From Rhodoferax bucti (GTDB lineage Bacteria > Pseudomonadota > Gammaproteobacteria > Burkholderiales > Burkholderiaceae_C), in NCBI RefSeq assembly GCF_005876985.1, contig NZ_VAHD01000002.1, positions 868,001 to 932,000 on the forward strand: a stretch of DNA of 64,000 nt. The letters run 5' to 3'. Both the position numbers and the translations under genes were made by a program. Positions 34,628-40,685 of the stretch are shown here, piece by piece. The notes under the pieces are model-generated. The model did not search any database. It saw only the letters and a list, made by a program, of their open reading frames with translations, and was not told the DNA's origin. Each line of letters begins with the position of its first letter. Position 1 is the stretch's first letter.

Positions 34628-36196
34628 ATGTTCAAATCGTTGCGCTGGGTGATGGCCCTATTGGGCACGATTGGTGTGGCGGCTGCGCTGGCCGTGGCCG
34701 CTCAGGGGTACCACTTCATTAACAAATTGGATGCGTCGGCCACCAAGGCCTACGTTGCCAAAGACGTGGTGGCCGACATCCTGCCGCCGCCCATGTACCT
34801 GATTGAAATGCGGCTGGTGCTGTCCATGATGCTGGACGGCAGCCTCAGCCCCGCAGAGGGCAAAAAGCGGTTTGACGAGTTGGCGGCCGAATACGCCCAG
34901 CGCGTGGACTACTGGAGCAAGAACCCGCCTTATGGCTTGGAGGCCAAATTGTTGGGGGCGCAGCACACGGCGGCGCAGGCCTTCATGGCCGCTGCGCGCT
35001 CGCAAATTGTGGAGCCGCTGGCGGCAGGTCAGGGGGATGTGGCCAAAACCCATTTGGCGGCGGTGCACGCGCTCTACTTGCAGCACCGCGCTGGGGTGGA
35101 TGCCACCGTCACCGATGGCAACGCCTTTGTCGCGGCCTCCATCAAATAGTTTGACGATGTCCACGCCCTCAGTGTGACGGCCATGCTGATCACCGCCTTG
35201 CTGGCGGCCGGCGTGGTGCTGTTGGTGTACCGCGCGGTGCTCAACAGCATTCAAAAACCCGTGCGCGCCAGCACCCAAGCGGCCAAGCTCATTGCCGCCG
35301 GCGACTTGGCGACCCATACGGTCATGGACGATGGCCGCAGCGACAGCCTGGGTGTGCTGCAAGAGGCCTTGCAGACCATGCGCGCTGGGTTGAATCAAAC
35401 GGTGAGCTCGGTGCGCGAGGTGGCGGAGAGTGTGTCCACCGCAAGTGCAGAAATTGCACAAGGCAACCACGACCTGTCTGCCCGCACCGAGAGCCAGGCC
35501 AGCGCCCTGGAGCAAACGGCCGCCTCCATGGAGCAGCTCACCGCTGTGGTGAACCAAAACGCCGAGTCCGCCCGCGAGGCCAATCTGCTGGCCAAGCAGG
35601 CTGCCGACGTGGCCCAACGTGGTGGTGAGGCCGTGGCCCAGGTGGTCGAGACCATGAAAGGCATCAACGACTCCTCGCGCCATATCGCGGGCATTGTGAG
35701 CGTCATTGAAGGCATTGCCTTCCAAACCAACATCCTGGCGTTGAATGCCGCGGTGGAAGCGGCTCGCGCGGGCGAGCAGGGGCGCGGGTTTGCGGTGGTG
35801 GCCAGCGAGGTGCGGTCGCTCGCCGGCCGCAGCTCCGAGGCAGCCAAGGAAATCAAAGCCTTGATTGATGCGAGCGTGGAGCGCGTGGCCCATGGGTCGT
35901 CCCTGGCCGACAACGCGGGGGCCACCATGGGCGACATGCTGCAAGCGACGCAGCGGGTGAGCAACATCCTGGGTGAAATCAGCTCTGCGAGCCGGGAGCA
36001 GTCCAGCGGCATCACGCAAGTGGGCGAGGCGGTCATGCAGATGGACCAGGTCACGCAGCAAAACGCCGCTCTGGTGGAAGAGATTGCCGCCGCCGCCAGT
36101 AGCTTGAAGATGCAGGCCAGTGAACTGGTGCGGCAGATGGCGCAATTCACGGTGGAGCAGGCCCGGGGCCATGCCCAGCCGCTGCGGCTGACCTGA
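34628..36196 (+). pseudogene. Methyl-accepting chemotaxis protein gene interrupted by in-frame TAG
   Basis: Two same-frame reading frames (34628-35149 and from 35150 on) are separated only by an amber codon at 35147-35149, after ATC AAA and before TTT GAC GAT. Joined, they make a 522-codon chemoreceptor: TM1 (residues about 8-27), a periplasmic sensor, TM2 ([19 protein letters not shown]), a HAMP-like part and an MA signalling domain with [35 protein letters not shown]. No C-terminal NWETF-like pentapeptide. SD GGAGG precedes ATG 34628. Nonsense mutation (such as CAG to TAG), suppression, or a sequencing error are all possible. The second half could restart at GTG 35174 and keep TM2 plus the signalling domain. 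Confidence 0.85.
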
Positions 36197-36423
36197 GGGG
36201 GCACGACACGGGCGGCGCCAGTATGTCCGGATAGACATACTGTGTCGGATATATGGATTTGCTGCCCGATTATTGTTTCTTGTTTTTCTTGAAAATATAG
36301 CCGTGGTGAATGCCATATATCCAGAGAAATAATAACTCTGTGTTTCCCGGTTTCTATCGGTATTTATAACCGGCGCTGAAAACTATTATTTACACATCCC
36401 TTAACCCTTTCAAGGAGTGTGTG
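36197..36423. promoter_or_regulatory. AT-rich control region with two inverted repeats
   Basis: Intergenic stretch of 227 bp, clearly more AT-rich than its surroundings. GTATGTC (36221-36227) and GACATAC (36234-36240) form a hairpin with a 6-bp loop. GGATATATGG (36247-36256) and CCATATATCC (36313-36322) are perfect 10-bp inverted arms 56 bp apart. Probably the promoter/operator of the following four-gene cassette; AAGGAG at 36412-36417 is the ribosome site of the first gene. Confidence 0.6.
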
Positions 36424-36828
36424 ATGAGTAATATCAATTCAGTATCCGGTTATGTGCCACCCGCACCGGCAGCCAAAACCAATTTTGAAACCAACAGCCA
36501 GGCCTACGGCCCGGTGGTTGCCAGCGTGCAGGGGGTGGGCGATGCCGTGGTCGATGCCGCCAGCGCGGTGGTCAACTTCAGTGCGGAGAGCCTGCAAAAG
36601 CTGGGCGACTCCATCAGCGCAGGCGTTGATTCGGTAGAAAACGCGTTCTCAGACGCCGGCACCGACGTCAGCGAGGCGGTGGACAGCGTGGAAAACTCCG
36701 CGGTGAGCCTCTACAACCAGGTGGCACAAATGGCGGAGGACGGCTGGAATTCGGTCAAATCCGCCGCCCACGATGCCGCCGCCTACGTCGGGCTGGCGGA
36801 CGAGAGCGATTCCAACACCGCAGGCTGA
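36424..36828 (+). CDS. Small acidic helical protein, unknown function
   Basis: 134 residues, no signal peptide and no Cys. A proline-rich N-terminus (VPPAPAAK) is followed by an Ala/Val/Ser/Asp-rich helical body. VDSVEN recurs at 68-73 and 86-91, exactly 18 residues (five helical turns) apart, suggesting an amphipathic or coiled-coil helix. Strong AAGGAG supports ATG 36424 rather than GTG 36421. It ends 2 bp before the lipoprotein gene. I recognise no family; it could be a secreted or surface protein of the cassette. Confidence 0.75.
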   Translation: MSNINSVSGYVPPAPAAKTNFETNSQAYGPVVASVQGVGDAVVDAASAVVNFSAESLQKLGDSISAGVDSVENAFSDAGTDVSEAVDSVENSAVSLYNQVAQMAEDGWNSVKSAAHDAAAYVGLADESDSNTAG

Positions 36829-36830
36829 GC

Positions 36831-37412
36831 ATGTCTGCCCGGCACAGTTGGGCCCTGGCAGTGGCCGGCAGCATGACGCTGTCGGGCTGCTCCATCCTCA
36901 GCCCCATCCCCTTGTGGGAAATGACCAAAGCCGCTGGCAGCGGCGCTGCCTTGGGGATGCAGAGCGCTGCCGGCGAGGCGGTGGACACGGTGTACCACCT
37001 GCACGCCCCTTTCAAGTCCGTGTGCATCGAATTCAATCCCGGCACCCAGGTCTCTGATGTGCTGCCTGCTTTGCAACGGGCGTTGAAGCTGCATGCGATA
37101 GACAGCCGGGTGTACGAGGCGACAGGGCCCGTGGCAGCCTGCCCGGTGTGGCTGCGCTACACCACCCTCATGGAGTGGGACAAAGCGCCCATGAGCGAGC
37201 GTTACCAGAGCTATGTGAGCGAAGCGTCGCTCACCCTGCAAAGCGCCCAGGGCGCGGTGCTGTCCAGCAGCCGCTACATGGTGGACCCGGTGTTTGCCAC
37301 CAGCAAGTGGGCGTCCACCTTTGACAAGTTGGCGCCGGTTGTGTCCGCACTGATTACCGGCTTCGCTACCGAGAAGCGCAGCACCTATCTCAGCAACAAG
37401 GGGGCCACATGA
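36831..37412 (+). CDS. Predicted outer-membrane lipoprotein
   Basis: 193 residues with a lipoprotein signal ending LSGC (Cys20). After the signal the mature chain has a fold-like region with VCIEFNPGTQVSDVLPALQRAL and CPVWLRYTTLMEWD, faintly like Sbal_3080-type lipoproteins, which I offer tentatively. The stop overlaps the flgH ATG by 4 bp (ATGA). Mid-gene Cys residues beyond Cys20 (in VCIEF and ACPVW) may form a disulfide. Confidence 0.78.
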   Translation: MSARHSWALAVAGSMTLSGCSILSPIPLWEMTKAAGSGAALGMQSAAGEAVDTVYHLHAPFKSVCIEFNPGTQVSDVLPALQRALKLHAIDSRVYEATGPVAACPVWLRYTTLMEWDKAPMSERYQSYVSEASLTLQSAQGAVLSSSRYMVDPVFATSKWASTFDKLAPVVSALITGFATEKRSTYLSNKGAT

Positions 37413-38098
37413 GCACGCATTGTTTTCAATTCCCGGCGGTCATCTTTGCTTTCAGCAGTTTGCTGAGCGCTTGCAGCACCCCACCGCCTGTGGTGCCCGG
37501 CCCGCTGCTTGCCGCACCGGTGGCCCTGCCTACGAACCTGGAGCGGGTCAACACCGGCTCGCTCTACAAACTCTCTGCCGGCTCCCTCTACAACGGCCGG
37601 CGCAAACCCCGGGCCGTAGGCGACACGCTGAAGGTGGAAATCGCCGAAACCCTGAGTGCGAGCAATACCGTCAAAACCGATGTGAGTCGGGACAGCGCCT
37701 TCACCTCCAAAGGCACGGGCAATGCCGCGCAGGGCTCGCTGCTGGCGCCGTGGTTCAACCAGAACGACAGCGCCTCCGGCAACAGTAGCTTCAAGGGCAA
37801 CGGCACCTCCAAAAACGACAGCAACTTCAATGGCCAGCTGGCAGCCTCGGTCATCAATGTGCTGGCCAATGGCAATCTGGTGATTGCGGGGGAACGCACC
37901 ATCGCCATGCAGGGCAATGGCAGCACGCTGCGCTTCTCCGGGGTGGTGGACCCCAAAGACATCAAGGATGGCAACGTAGTCCAGTCCGCCGATGTGGTGA
38001 ACGCCCGGCTGGAGATGGTGGGGCAGGGCGATGTGTCAGACGCCTCCTCCCGCAGCTGGCTGCAGAGGGTGCTGACCAACTCGCTCGCCATCTGGTGA
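37409..38098 (+). CDS. flgH: Orphan FlgH-like L-ring lipoprotein
   Basis: 229-residue homologue of the flagellar outer-membrane L-ring protein. Lipobox LSAC at 18-21 or so. FlgH hallmarks: LYNGRRKPRAVGDTLKVEIAETLSASN, SVINVLANGNLVIAGER, STLRFSGVVDPKDI and VNARLEMVGQGDVSDA with a terminal SWLQRVL. Full length and intact. Flagellar FlgH is made with FlgI (P-ring) and other rod/hook genes; none lies in the window. It is coupled to a lipoprotein gene, so it may build an outer-membrane ring in another structure. It could also be a displaced flagellar gene. Confidence 0.85.
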   Translation: MSTHCFQFPAVIFAFSSLLSACSTPPPVVPGPLLAAPVALPTNLERVNTGSLYKLSAGSLYNGRRKPRAVGDTLKVEIAETLSASNTVKTDVSRDSAFTSKGTGNAAQGSLLAPWFNQNDSASGNSSFKGNGTSKNDSNFNGQLAASVINVLANGNLVIAGERTIAMQGNGSTLRFSGVVDPKDIKDGNVVQSADVVNARLEMVGQGDVSDASSRSWLQRVLTNSLAIW

Positions 38099-38116
38099 GC
38101 CGCGAAGGAGAACGCA

Positions 38117-38728
38117 ATGCAACACCTTATTCGTTGCTGGCTGGCGGCCGCTTTGTGTGTCCTGGCGTGCTGGCCTGCCTGGCCGGCCGTGGAGATGGAC
38201 GGCATCGTGCTGGAGGACTGTGTGCAGGTGGGCGGCAAAAGCCTCAAGCTCAATGGCGCAGGCATCAGCATGCGGCTGATGTTCAAGGTGTACGCCATGG
38301 GCTTGTACCTGCCGGCCCAGCGGGCCACCCCGCAGGATGTGCTGGCCACCGACGGGCCGCGCCGGCTCAGTATCACCATGCTGCGCAACGTGCGCAGCGA
38401 GGACTTCCAGCGGGGGCTGACCTCCTATGTGAGTGCCGAGGGGGCCGCCTTGCCCGAAGCGGCGGCAGCCGGCATCCTGCATCTCAGCCGCTCCCTGGCG
38501 GAGCAAACCGCCGGGCTCAGCAAAGGCGATGTGCTCACCCTGGACTGGTTGCCCGGCACCGGCACGGTGGTGGAGCTCAACAAGCGCCCGGTGTCCGCCC
38601 CGCTGCGCGACATTGCGGTCTACAACGCGCTGCTCAACATCTGGCTGGGCGAGCGGCCGGCCGATCCGACCCTGAAGGACAAACTCCTGGGCCGCGCCAC
38701 GGTGATGCGGGCGGCTTGGAGTTATTAA
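38117..38728 (+). CDS. Exported chalcone-isomerase-like protein
   Basis: 203 residues with a Sec signal (MQHLIRCWLAAALCVLACWPAWPA). The mature part has the chalcone-isomerase-like pattern of bacterial periplasmic members: GIVLEDCVQVGGKSLKLNGAGISMRLMFKVYAMGLYLP, then RNVRSEDFQRGL and DWLPGTGTVVELN. Bacterial homologues usually lack the plant active site and function is unknown. It follows flgH by 18 bp with GAAGGAG upstream, so it belongs to the same cassette. Confidence 0.87.
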   Translation: MQHLIRCWLAAALCVLACWPAWPAVEMDGIVLEDCVQVGGKSLKLNGAGISMRLMFKVYAMGLYLPAQRATPQDVLATDGPRRLSITMLRNVRSEDFQRGLTSYVSAEGAALPEAAAAGILHLSRSLAEQTAGLSKGDVLTLDWLPGTGTVVELNKRPVSAPLRDIAVYNALLNIWLGERPADPTLKDKLLGRATVMRAAWSY

Positions 38729-38736
38729 TAAGGGTT

Positions 38737-38800
38737 TTGTAAAGCTTGTGTATCTCGCATATTTCTATATGGATTCAAAACTTGTAAAGAGTTTGCAAAG
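38737..38800. promoter_or_regulatory. Repeated TTGTAAAG boxes upstream of the response-regulator gene
   Basis: TTGTAAAG at 38737-38744 and 38782-38789, plus TTGCAAAG at 38793-38800. The last two are spaced 11 bp start to start, the usual tandem-site layout of OmpR-family regulators; the first lies 45 bp away (about four turns). A -10-like TATACT lies at 38848-38853. Likely autoregulatory sites. Confidence 0.5.
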
Positions 38801-38874
38801 TTTCTGATTCGGCTGGATTTATCCGGAAACCCGCTATTTACAAAATCTATACTGAATTTTTCTTCTGCACGTAT

Positions 38875-39591
38875 ATGGCCCAAGTACTCATAGTGGACGA
38901 TGACGAGGAAATTAACCAACTCCTCGGTAATTACCTCAAACCCTACGGATTTGAAACCCATGTGGCCCTGAATGGCCATGAAATGAAAGACAAGCTGCAG
39001 GCCCACGCCATCGATCTGGTGGTAATGGATGTCATGCTGCCCGAGACCGATGGCCTCAAGCTCACCCGCGACATCCGCCGCCACTCGCGCATGCCCGTCA
39101 TCATGCTCACCGCCCGGTCCGACCATTTCGACCGGGTGCTGGGCCTGGAAAACGGCGCGGATGACTACATGACCAAGCCCTTTGAGCCCCGCGAACTGGT
39201 GGCACGCATCCAGGCGGTGTTGCGCCGCGTGGCGGCCAAAGAGGAGAGCTACGCCACCGTGGCCAACCTGATGAACTTCAACGGCTGGCAGCTCGACCGC
39301 GAGAGCCGCCAACTGCTGGCTCCCAGCGGCTTGACGGTGGCGCTCTCCAACGCCGAATACCGGCTGCTGTGCAGCTTTTTGCAGGCCCCCCGCAAATTGC
39401 TGAGCCGCGAGCAACTGCTGAGCCTGGCCGGCGGAGAGCAGGTAGGCGCCGGCGAGCGCAGCATCGATTTGCTGGTGTCCCGCTTGCGGCAAAAACTGGC
39501 GCGCGCGGCCGATGGCCTGGACTTGATCCGCACCATTCGCGGCAAGGGCTATTTGTTTGACATTGCCGGCGTGCAGCCGCTGACCGCGTGA
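38875..39591 (+). CDS. OmpR-family response regulator
   Basis: 238 residues. Receiver domain (1-120) with acidic DDDEE at 8-12, phospho-acceptor Asp in VVMDVMLPETDG and switch Lys in YMTKPFEPRE. C-terminal winged helix (about 135-230) with LSNAEYRLLCSFLQAPRKLLSREQLL and RLRQKLARAADGLDLIRTIRGKGYLF. No clear ribosome site before ATG 38875. The stop overlaps the kinase start (ATGA). Likely controls the preceding FlgH cassette, itself, or both; target not proven. Confidence 0.93.
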   Translation: MAQVLIVDDDEEINQLLGNYLKPYGFETHVALNGHEMKDKLQAHAIDLVVMDVMLPETDGLKLTRDIRRHSRMPVIMLTARSDHFDRVLGLENGADDYMTKPFEPRELVARIQAVLRRVAAKEESYATVANLMNFNGWQLDRESRQLLAPSGLTVALSNAEYRLLCSFLQAPRKLLSREQLLSLAGGEQVGAGERSIDLLVSRLRQKLARAADGLDLIRTIRGKGYLFDIAGVQPLTA

Positions 39592-40685
39592 TGCGCTGGC
39601 GGGCGGCGTGGCTGCGCCGTCTGGTGCCGCGCACCTTGTACGGGCGCCTGGCCTGCTTGGTGGCCGTGGCGGTGGTGATCAGCCATTTTCTGGCGATCAA
39701 ACTCATGTTCGAAATGGGGCCCCACCTGTTTGGCCCGCCACCCGGGCCGGGGCCGCGCCCGCCGCCGGGCGGCCTGGACCTGTTGACGCACTGGAACCTG
39801 TGGCTGGACGTGGCCTTCCGCCTGAGCGCCTTGCTTTTGGTGACCTGGGTCGGGGTACGCTGGCTGGCCCAGCCGGTGCAAGGACTGGCCGATGCCGCGC
39901 GCGGCCTGGGGCAGGATGTGCGCAGCCCGCCGCTGGTGGAGAGTGGCACGGTGGAGTGCCGGGAGGCCATCCGCGTGTTCAACCAGATGCAGGCCCGCAT
40001 CTGCCGCCAGCTCGATGAGCGCGATAACTTTGTGGCCGCGGTATCGCACGACCTGCGTACCCCCTTGACCCGCCTGGCCTTGCGAGTGGAAGCCCTGCCC
40101 GATGGGCAACACCGGGCGCAGTTCGGCCGCGATATTGCGGAGATGAACAACATGATCACCATAACGCTGGACTACATGCGCAATGTGGCGGCGGTGGAGC
40201 CTTTTGTGCTGCTGGACGTGGAGTCCATGCTGGCCAGTCTGGCGGACGACTATGCCGCCACCGGGGCCGATGTGGTCTTGCAAGACTGCCCTGCCGGTCA
40301 GGGCTGCGCGCCCTTGCACACCCAGCCGCAGGCGCTGCGCCGTTGTGTGGCCAATCTGGTGGACAACGCGGTGCGCTACGGGGGGCGGGCCCTGCTGGCC
40401 TGCTACACCCTGGACGGGGTGGTGTGCCTGGAGGTGGCCGACGACGGTGCCGGCGTGAGCGAGTCTGAGCTGCAAAAAATTGTGCAGCCCTTTTACCGCA
40501 GCGAGGGCTCGCGCAACCGGCACAGCGGCGGGGTGGGGCTGGGGCTGTCGATTGCCAGTGACATCGCCCAGCGCCTCAAGGGCCGCTTGACTCTCAGCAA
40601 CCGCCCGGAGGGCGGGTTGTTGGCGACGCTGCTATTTCCACTACCTGGGCTTTCCACTGCGTCGCCCAGCAGGCCAAGGCGCTAG
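39588..40685 (+). CDS. Membrane histidine kinase with minimal proline-rich sensor loop
   Basis: EnvZ/RstB-like kinase, 365 residues. TM1 (about 20-40), then a very short periplasmic loop rich in Pro and Gly ([14 protein letters not shown], about 48-61), then TM2 (about 75-95), HAMP, the phospho-His in [14 protein letters not shown], and a catalytic domain with [16 protein letters not shown] and [12 protein letters not shown]. The tiny loop suggests sensing within the membrane or through a partner protein. The 3' end overlaps convergent gluQ by 92 bp. Confidence 0.92.

Follow-up and report, generated by a model that had tools for sequence, protein, structure and literature searches.

A flagellar system is usually viewed as having a single L-ring protein, FlgH, encoded between flgG and flgI. 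Here, we describe a small gene cassette in a 64-kb stretch of the Rhodoferax bucti genome (contig NZ_VAHD01000002.1, positions 868,001 to 932,000; hereafter the window) that carries a second FlgH away from this setting. The cassette FlgH belongs to a separate clade of FlgH proteins, adjoins a lipoprotein with a predicted PelC-like fold in every locus read from the host's family, and occurs, among the genomes tested, only where the P-ring protein FlgI is also encoded. In one genus (g139), no canonical flgH lies beside flgI, and the cassette FlgH appears to have replaced the canonical protein in the flagellar L-ring. The reading that we favor, and to which we give an about even chance of being right, is that the cassette specifies a flagellar outer-membrane bushing (L-ring) that is an alternative to the usual one, is regulated separately and has a lipoprotein partner. 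This reading accounts for the FlgI-only occurrence, the absence of the canonical gene in g139 and the conserved partner.

In such a bushing, the orphan FlgH would assemble into an outer-membrane ring resembling the L-ring. This ring would dock on the FlgI P-ring, either replacing the canonical L-ring or standing beside it. The PelC-like lipoprotein would form or stabilize a second ring around the FlgH ring, and two further products would be accessories: the small acidic helical protein and, in loci that encode it, the chalcone-isomerase-like protein. If true, the L-ring proteins would include a subfamily that split off long ago, has a lipoprotein and regulators of its own and is able to serve as the sole FlgH of a genome, which would make the outer-membrane bushing exchangeable. 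The cassette would also provide named candidates for protecting the outer membrane around a turning flagellum and for closing the hole that is left once flagella are shed. The component families are known. In the literature that we searched, we found no description of their combination, of the FlgH subfamily or of the cassette itself; the search covered open-licence papers and not subscription papers.

The cassette and its genes

In the window, the cassette consists of four genes (36421-38728), preceded by a likely promoter region and followed by a two-component system:

36197 to 36423, + strand: AT-rich intergenic stretch, likely promoter-bearing, with AAGGAG at 36412-36417 (read from the sequence)
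36424 to 36828, + strand: small acidic protein of 134 amino acids counted from the ATG, predicted helical (open reading frame and composition)
36831 to 37412, + strand: lipoprotein of 193 amino acids, distant member of the Sbal_3080 family with a predicted PelC-like fold (lipobox, NF040519, structure model)
37409 to 38098, + strand: orphan FlgH paralogue, a lipoprotein of 229 amino acids of the cassette clade (PF02107, trees, residue comparison)
38117 to 38728, + strand: exported chalcone-isomerase-like protein (Chalcone_3) of 203 amino acids, an optional member (PF16036)
38875 to 39591, + strand: OmpR-type response regulator of 238 amino acids (Pfam Response_reg and Trans_reg_C)
39588 to 40685, + strand: EnvZ-type sensor kinase of 365 amino acids with a short periplasmic part (HisKA and HATPase_c; the gene overlaps the regulator gene by 4 bp)

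The sequence-only reading that preceded this analysis had proposed four closely packed genes with a complete FlgH among them, a two-component pair downstream and no flagellar gene nearby. Open reading frames and Pfam matches bear out the packing, with junctions of 2 bp, a 4-bp overlap and 18 bp. The first frame (36421-36828) would give 135 amino acids from a GTG at 36421, although the ATG at 36424, 6 nt past the AAGGAG, is the likelier start. FlgH and Chalcone_3 score well above their Pfam cut-offs of 27 (PF02107, 152.7 bits; PF16036, 128.1 bits). The domains listed above confirm the two-component pair, whose kinase also has a HAMP match that stays under the Pfam cut-off (20.7 versus 25 bits). 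Both proteins score below the NCBIfam equivalog cut-offs (OmpR, 200.6 versus 331; EnvZ, 179.1 versus 415), and by sequence we call the pair OmpR/EnvZ-like and do not place it as OmpR/EnvZ orthologues. The separation from flagellar genes holds for flgA-flgL: a tblastn search, in which fli, flh and mot genes were not sought, found none of them besides FlgH in the whole 64-kb window.

Conservation of the lipoprotein–FlgH pair

The lipoprotein was detected in 44 of 399 family genomes, at 47 places in total. FlgH adjoins it in 43 of the 43 family loci that were read, 42 times on the same strand. As for the other four places, two are weak, partial matches in genomes without an FlgH (G078 and G125), one runs into a run of N (G046), and a second copy in G096 has FlgH beside the lipoprotein by its coordinates. 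Because the lipoprotein–FlgH neighborhood recurs in all 43 loci, the grouping goes beyond chance, and the cassette is a real conserved unit that often adjoins a regulator. Three genomes (G096, G346 and G408) carry two lipoprotein–FlgH cassettes each. In a relative of the window genome (L084 in G046, and L078), the cassette lipoprotein gene continues into a 5-kb stretch of N.

The pair is also found beyond these loci. Among 22 named loci collected with the lipoprotein alignment, five equal family records (L110, L113, L117, L118 and L120, which are G242, G311, G282, G351 and G099). FlgH and the lipoprotein are present in 16 of the 17 others, and the miss (L109) ends at a contig edge. Named lipoprotein hosts include Curvibacter, Roseateles, Mitsuaria, Paucibacter, Pelomonas, Sphaerotilus, Rubrivivax, Ideonella, Methylibium, Comamonas, Rhodoferax and Scleromatobacter, several of them as metagenome-assembled genomes (MAGs). 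Outside the family, seven of 250 order-sample genomes have FlgH adjoining the lipoprotein, five of them with the two genes on opposite strands. Member counts come from profile searches, except that the pairs at L224 and L225 were taken from reading the outside-family neighborhoods and lie below the threshold of the locus profile search. Seven weaker Sbal_3080 relatives of the lipoprotein (L188-L194; three from the order sample, four from the class sample) have no FlgH alongside.

The other members are less constant. Homologues of the small helical protein occur in 37 of 43 family loci, Chalcone_3 in at least nine, a CRP-like regulator after flgH in at least 13, and a regulator and kinase pair like that of the window in at least three (window included; in L066 it lies on the other strand). 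The last three counts are lower bounds because nine of the 43 loci span only ~3.5 kb. Of the four-gene unit in the sequence-only reading, the lipoprotein–FlgH pair thus holds elsewhere and the small protein is usual, whereas Chalcone_3 is occasional and the two-component pair is inconstant.

Co-occurrence with FlgI and the flgH gap in g139

FlgI is encoded in all 42 family genomes with a cassette (G046 being counted through its lipoprotein), compared with 278 of 357 cassette-free genomes. The association gives a Fisher p of 1e-4 by genome and 0.007 by genus, with kinship and genome size uncontrolled. All seven cassette genomes outside the family encode FlgI as well, and there the number of FlgH proteins equals that of FlgI plus cassettes.

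Five family genomes with a cassette have no flgH between flgG and flgI: G199, G411, G282 and G351, all of genus g139, and G046, from the genus of the window. All five encode flagellins. In g139, flgI directly follows flgG: the flgG stop codon overlaps an ATG that is in frame with flgI, leaving no room for flgH; in G046, ~185 bp separate flgG from the FlgI match. The cassette FlgH is the only FlgH found in G199 and G411, and a second, flagellar FlgH is also present in G282 and G351. As controls, we used 80 of the 278 cassette-free, FlgI-positive genomes, taken in list order at a completeness of at least 99%; four of the 80 were added because their genera contain cassettes. FlgH was found in 80 of 80 controls. 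Fewer non-cassette FlgH than FlgI proteins were counted in 5 of 42 cassette genomes versus 1 of 80 controls (p 0.018).

Presence in FlgI genomes only, together with an envelope-type OmpR/EnvZ-like pair, would also fit a sealing or repair collar, in which the cassette caps or reinforces the outer membrane at the L/P-ring hole after flagellar damage or shedding. Precedents exist for both halves of this idea: according to an excerpt of PMC6424402, shed flagella leave L/P-ring relics that are closed by an unidentified plug, and a partial text of PMC11756786 describes a lipoprotein ring that shields the outer membrane at the Helicobacter pylori flagellum. These precedents come from other bacterial groups and involve other proteins, however, and a collar by itself leaves the loss of the canonical flgH in g139 unexplained. 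We regard it as a long shot.

A separate FlgH clade

The window genome has another FlgH (G000:C1:1287046-1287582), flanked by flgG and flgI in the ordinary flagellar cluster, where the sequence-only reading had suggested looking for one. Because this canonical gene is present, the window FlgH is an orphan paralogue and not a displaced single copy. Elsewhere in a 61-genome sample of the genus, full-length FlgHs are at most 37% identical to it, and a single fragment of 98 residues is 39% identical; nine of these other matches were placed in a tree, and all nine group with canonical FlgHs. In the tree, which holds 107 FlgH proteins, a branch of length 2.72, supported at 100/100, sets all 55 cassette copies apart from both polar and lateral flagellar FlgHs. 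A second tree of 87 rows, which adds seven copies from outside the family and four plasmid copies, unites 41 cassette rows and three Caballeronia plasmid rows in one clade (97/96). The roots of the FlgH trees are midpoint roots only, and some branches are long.

Two candidate assignments were rejected on these trees. The cassette is not a remnant of a lateral flagellar system, given the 107-protein tree and the lack of flgI beside it, and the FlgH on the megaplasmid of Cupriavidus metallidurans CH34 is not of the cassette type, as it groups with the Escherichia coli FlgH. The Caballeronia plasmids (L226, L227 and L228) carry orphan FlgHs of the wider cassette clade. An Sbal_3080-like lipoprotein lies ~8 kb from this FlgH on the NK8 plasmid and ~2.3 kb from it on SBC2. 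On the NK8 and Caballeronia grimmiae plasmids, response-regulator genes as well as genes for a tyrosine phosphatase and a DUF6726 protein are close to the orphan FlgH, which on the C. grimmiae plasmid is ~5.6 kb from flhDC.

The simplest alternative is a displaced or duplicated flagellar flgH that encodes an ordinary L-ring protein among unrelated neighbors. According to the sequence-only reading, this would be the case if the genome had no other flgH and the protein were needed for swimming. The window genome has its canonical flgH, and the first half, gene content, applies to G199 and G411, where the cassette copy is the sole FlgH found. In Sphaerotilus hippei (G230), the cassette lies near a flg cluster, though a canonical flgH is present there too. 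The cassette FlgHs nevertheless form a single, divergent clade, and their lipoprotein partner is constant, so the neighbors are not there by chance. We consider the ordinary-gene explanation improbable.

For the window protein, the PF02107 alignment is full-length (positions 3-169 of 172). As read from the sequence and not from a predictor, the lipidation Cys22 of the signal peptide is invariant in 18 aligned members, and the FlgH core motifs GD...NGNL.(V)AGE..RFSG are present. The window FlgH stays under every listed NCBIfam FlgH equivalog cut-off (at best 144.1 bits versus 280). Flagellar L-ring chains (four distinct sequences) are the only PDB matches of the cassette FlgH profile. An AlphaFold monomer of the cassette FlgH was too poor (predicted local distance difference test score, pLDDT, 58) and was left unused.

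In the mature Salmonella FlgH, the residues that dock on FlgI are I30/F31 and L44/F45, as given in an extract of PMC8298488. The outer pocket for FlgI is kept in the cassette clade, with I or L in 55 of 55 proteins and Y, F or W in 55 of 55. At the inner-pocket site, an aromatic residue is found in all 55 (F in 50, Y in 5), displaced one residue by an insertion. Among 64 positions that are conserved at 90% or more in 31 polar FlgHs, 30 are retained in at least 80% of cassette FlgHs.

Evidence for a possible ring outside the flagellum

A number of observations weigh against an alternative L-ring. Starting with the protein itself, the other 34 of the 64 polar-conserved positions are unkept in the cassette clade (one of them counts so only through a one-residue shift), and 26 positions are cassette-specific, among them a C-terminal Trp found in all. 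The rod-facing K114, a lysine in 29 of 31 polar FlgHs, is one in only 6 of 55 cassette FlgHs. The inner-pocket aromatic is no strict test of docking, because lateral FlgHs do without it. Taken together, the residues suggest that the ring core and the P-ring dock are kept and that the rod-facing side has changed.

Genomic context adds to these points. By count, 37 of the 42 cassette genomes retain the canonical flgH, their non-cassette FlgH proteins being equal in number to FlgI. The same tblastn search covered 59 distinct cassette loci, the window in full and mostly 5-10 kb on each side of the others, and in 58 of them it found no flgA-flgL gene besides FlgH. The exception is Sphaerotilus hippei (L230, G230:C18), where the cassette lipoprotein and FlgH genes face each other on opposite strands. 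They sit 4.4 kb, measured to flgB, upstream of a complete flgBCDEFGHIJKL cluster in which the canonical flgH is retained. There is no clear sigma-28 promoter: the best match in the window has four mismatches, and sites with at most three mismatches occur in 18 of 70 cassette upstream regions (duplicates included) versus ~11 in block shuffles, a slight excess.

The association with FlgI and the case of g139 have weak points of their own. Kinship, and perhaps genome size, confounds the co-occurrence with FlgI. Among the four g139 genomes, only G199 (Scleromatobacter humisilvae BS-T2-15) is an isolate; G411 (93% complete), G282 and G351 (88% complete) are MAGs. In G046, the cassette FlgH is hidden in the run of N and unreadable. 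One control (G063) has two FlgI and one FlgH. Counted by genus, the shortfall of flgH is 2 of 21 versus 1 of 74 (p 0.12), and the replacement argument therefore draws its strength from G199, a clean case, more than from statistics.

The main rival to an alternative L-ring is a neofunctionalized, flagellum-independent ring, because it better accounts for the divergence of the cassette FlgH and the retention of canonical flgH in most genomes. Here, FlgH and the PelC-like lipoprotein would build a stacked pore or collar, switched by the regulators, that exports or holds the small protein or other cargo. Besides the observations on residues, gene content, promoters and flagellar neighbors above, this idea draws on the constant place of FlgH beside the predicted PelC-like lipoprotein in the loci read, on the variety of regulators among loci and on the related orphan FlgHs that accompany response-regulator genes on Caballeronia plasmids. 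It sits poorly with the FlgI-only occurrence among tested genomes, with g139, where flgI is kept without a canonical flgH, and with the retained FlgI-docking residues. In addition, no export or inner-membrane partner was recognized as a constant member among the neighbors, which were not annotated exhaustively. We consider a separate ring unlikely on balance. The same points, along with the proximity to flagellar genes in S. hippei, leave the suggestion of the sequence-only reading that the FlgH works in a non-flagellar structure unsupported.

Returning to the alternative L-ring, a broader version can be put forward tentatively, though we hold it to fall short of an even chance. An outer-membrane machine made from a duplicated L-ring protein and a PelC-like ring lipoprotein, inducible by its regulators, might stand in for the L-ring in g139. 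Elsewhere, it might seal, reinforce or replace the flagellar pore, or it might be a pore of its own that the helical protein plugs or passes through as cargo.

Partner proteins and regulation

The window lipoprotein matches no Pfam family at E <= 1 and reaches 37.1 bits with the NCBIfam model Sbal_3080_fam (NF040519), under the cut-off of 80; all 16 aligned members give matches to this model at E <= 0.01. The lipobox Cys is invariant in the alignment, and the protein probably resides in the outer membrane. Its structure model (pLDDT 82) has PelC as the top Foldseek match (E 1.8e-4). In VIA-align, four PelC entries come first (Z 10.1-11.0; the best aligns 124 residues at 3.9 A with Z 11.0), followed by entries at 8.7 (CsgG among them), then TraT, TolB and others. 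FlgT (Z 7.1) and an LPHT-ring chain (Z 7.3) score near 7, the range of common arrangements. The model thus predicts a PelC fold. By analogy with PelC, CsgG and TraT, which form rings, the lipoprotein might do so as well, a property that a fold match does not itself show.

The small protein is acidic (isoelectric point 4.05) and amphipathic, with no stretch of transmembrane strength (best 19-residue hydropathy 1.34) and no signal peptide recognizable by eye. Its homologues (12 aligned) have 122-244 amino acids, typically with an N-terminal (F/Y)ExN...YGPV and a C-terminal YxxLG, and its Pfam matches are weak and of the amphipathic-helix kind only. It might act as a plug, as the sequence-only reading suggested, as a cargo or as a factor in the cytoplasm.

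The regulators differ between hosts. Two-component pairs like that of the window are also found in Comamonas composti and a Hylemonella MAG. Relatives of the window regulator at 52-55% identity lie beside cassettes L063/L103, L066, L137 and L138, with kinase relatives at 43-53%. In g139, an OmpR-type regulator at 44-47% identity follows flgH in four of four loci, where nothing matches the window kinase. Matches to the response regulator at 33-39% identity near cassettes are probably unrelated neighbors. In the Roseateles/Mitsuaria type (L074, L076, L077, L079, L095, L110, L136 and others), the gene immediately 3′ of the cassette flgH encodes a CRP/FNR-like regulator and in some loci overlaps the flgH stop.

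Judging from its position, the OmpR-type regulator probably controls the cassette. No operator common to the cassette and regulator promoters was recognized by eye in five two-component loci. The window has direct repeats (TTGTAAAG and TTGCAAAG) upstream of the response regulator gene, between 38729 and 38874; they are 11 bp apart, the usual spacing for OmpR-type sites, and the other two-component loci showed no such repeats. The gene that immediately precedes the cassette (34628-36196) is one for a methyl-accepting chemotaxis protein, which one in-frame stop splits into two open frames of the same phase.

Comparison with known systems

The cassette FlgH resembles canonical FlgH (PF02107) in its full-length match, N-terminal lipidation Cys, core motifs and outer-pocket residues. 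It differs in its separate clade, its constant lipoprotein partner and its location away from flgG and flgI, the case near the flg cluster in S. hippei excepted. A second FlgH per genome has a parallel in species with two flagellar systems, such as Shewanella piezotolerans WP3. According to an excerpt of PMC5178100, this strain has polar as well as lateral flagella and carries an flgH2. The lateral-type second FlgHs in our data, however, adjoin their own FlgI, whereas cassette FlgHs do not and form a different clade.

The cassette lipoprotein shares its predicted fold and lipidation with PelC, the ring lipoprotein of Pel polysaccharide export, which forms a dodecamer on PelB. The two differ in that they have only 10-15% identity over the alignment, and no Pel genes were recognized in the loci read, although these were not searched for as such. 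Lipoproteins linked to an L-ring protein are also known from the FlgO/FlgP/FlgT H-ring and, according to the partial text of PMC11756786, from FapH of H. pylori and YecR of Salmonella. Those proteins act with the canonical L-ring, whereas the cassette lipoprotein travels with its own FlgH paralogue.

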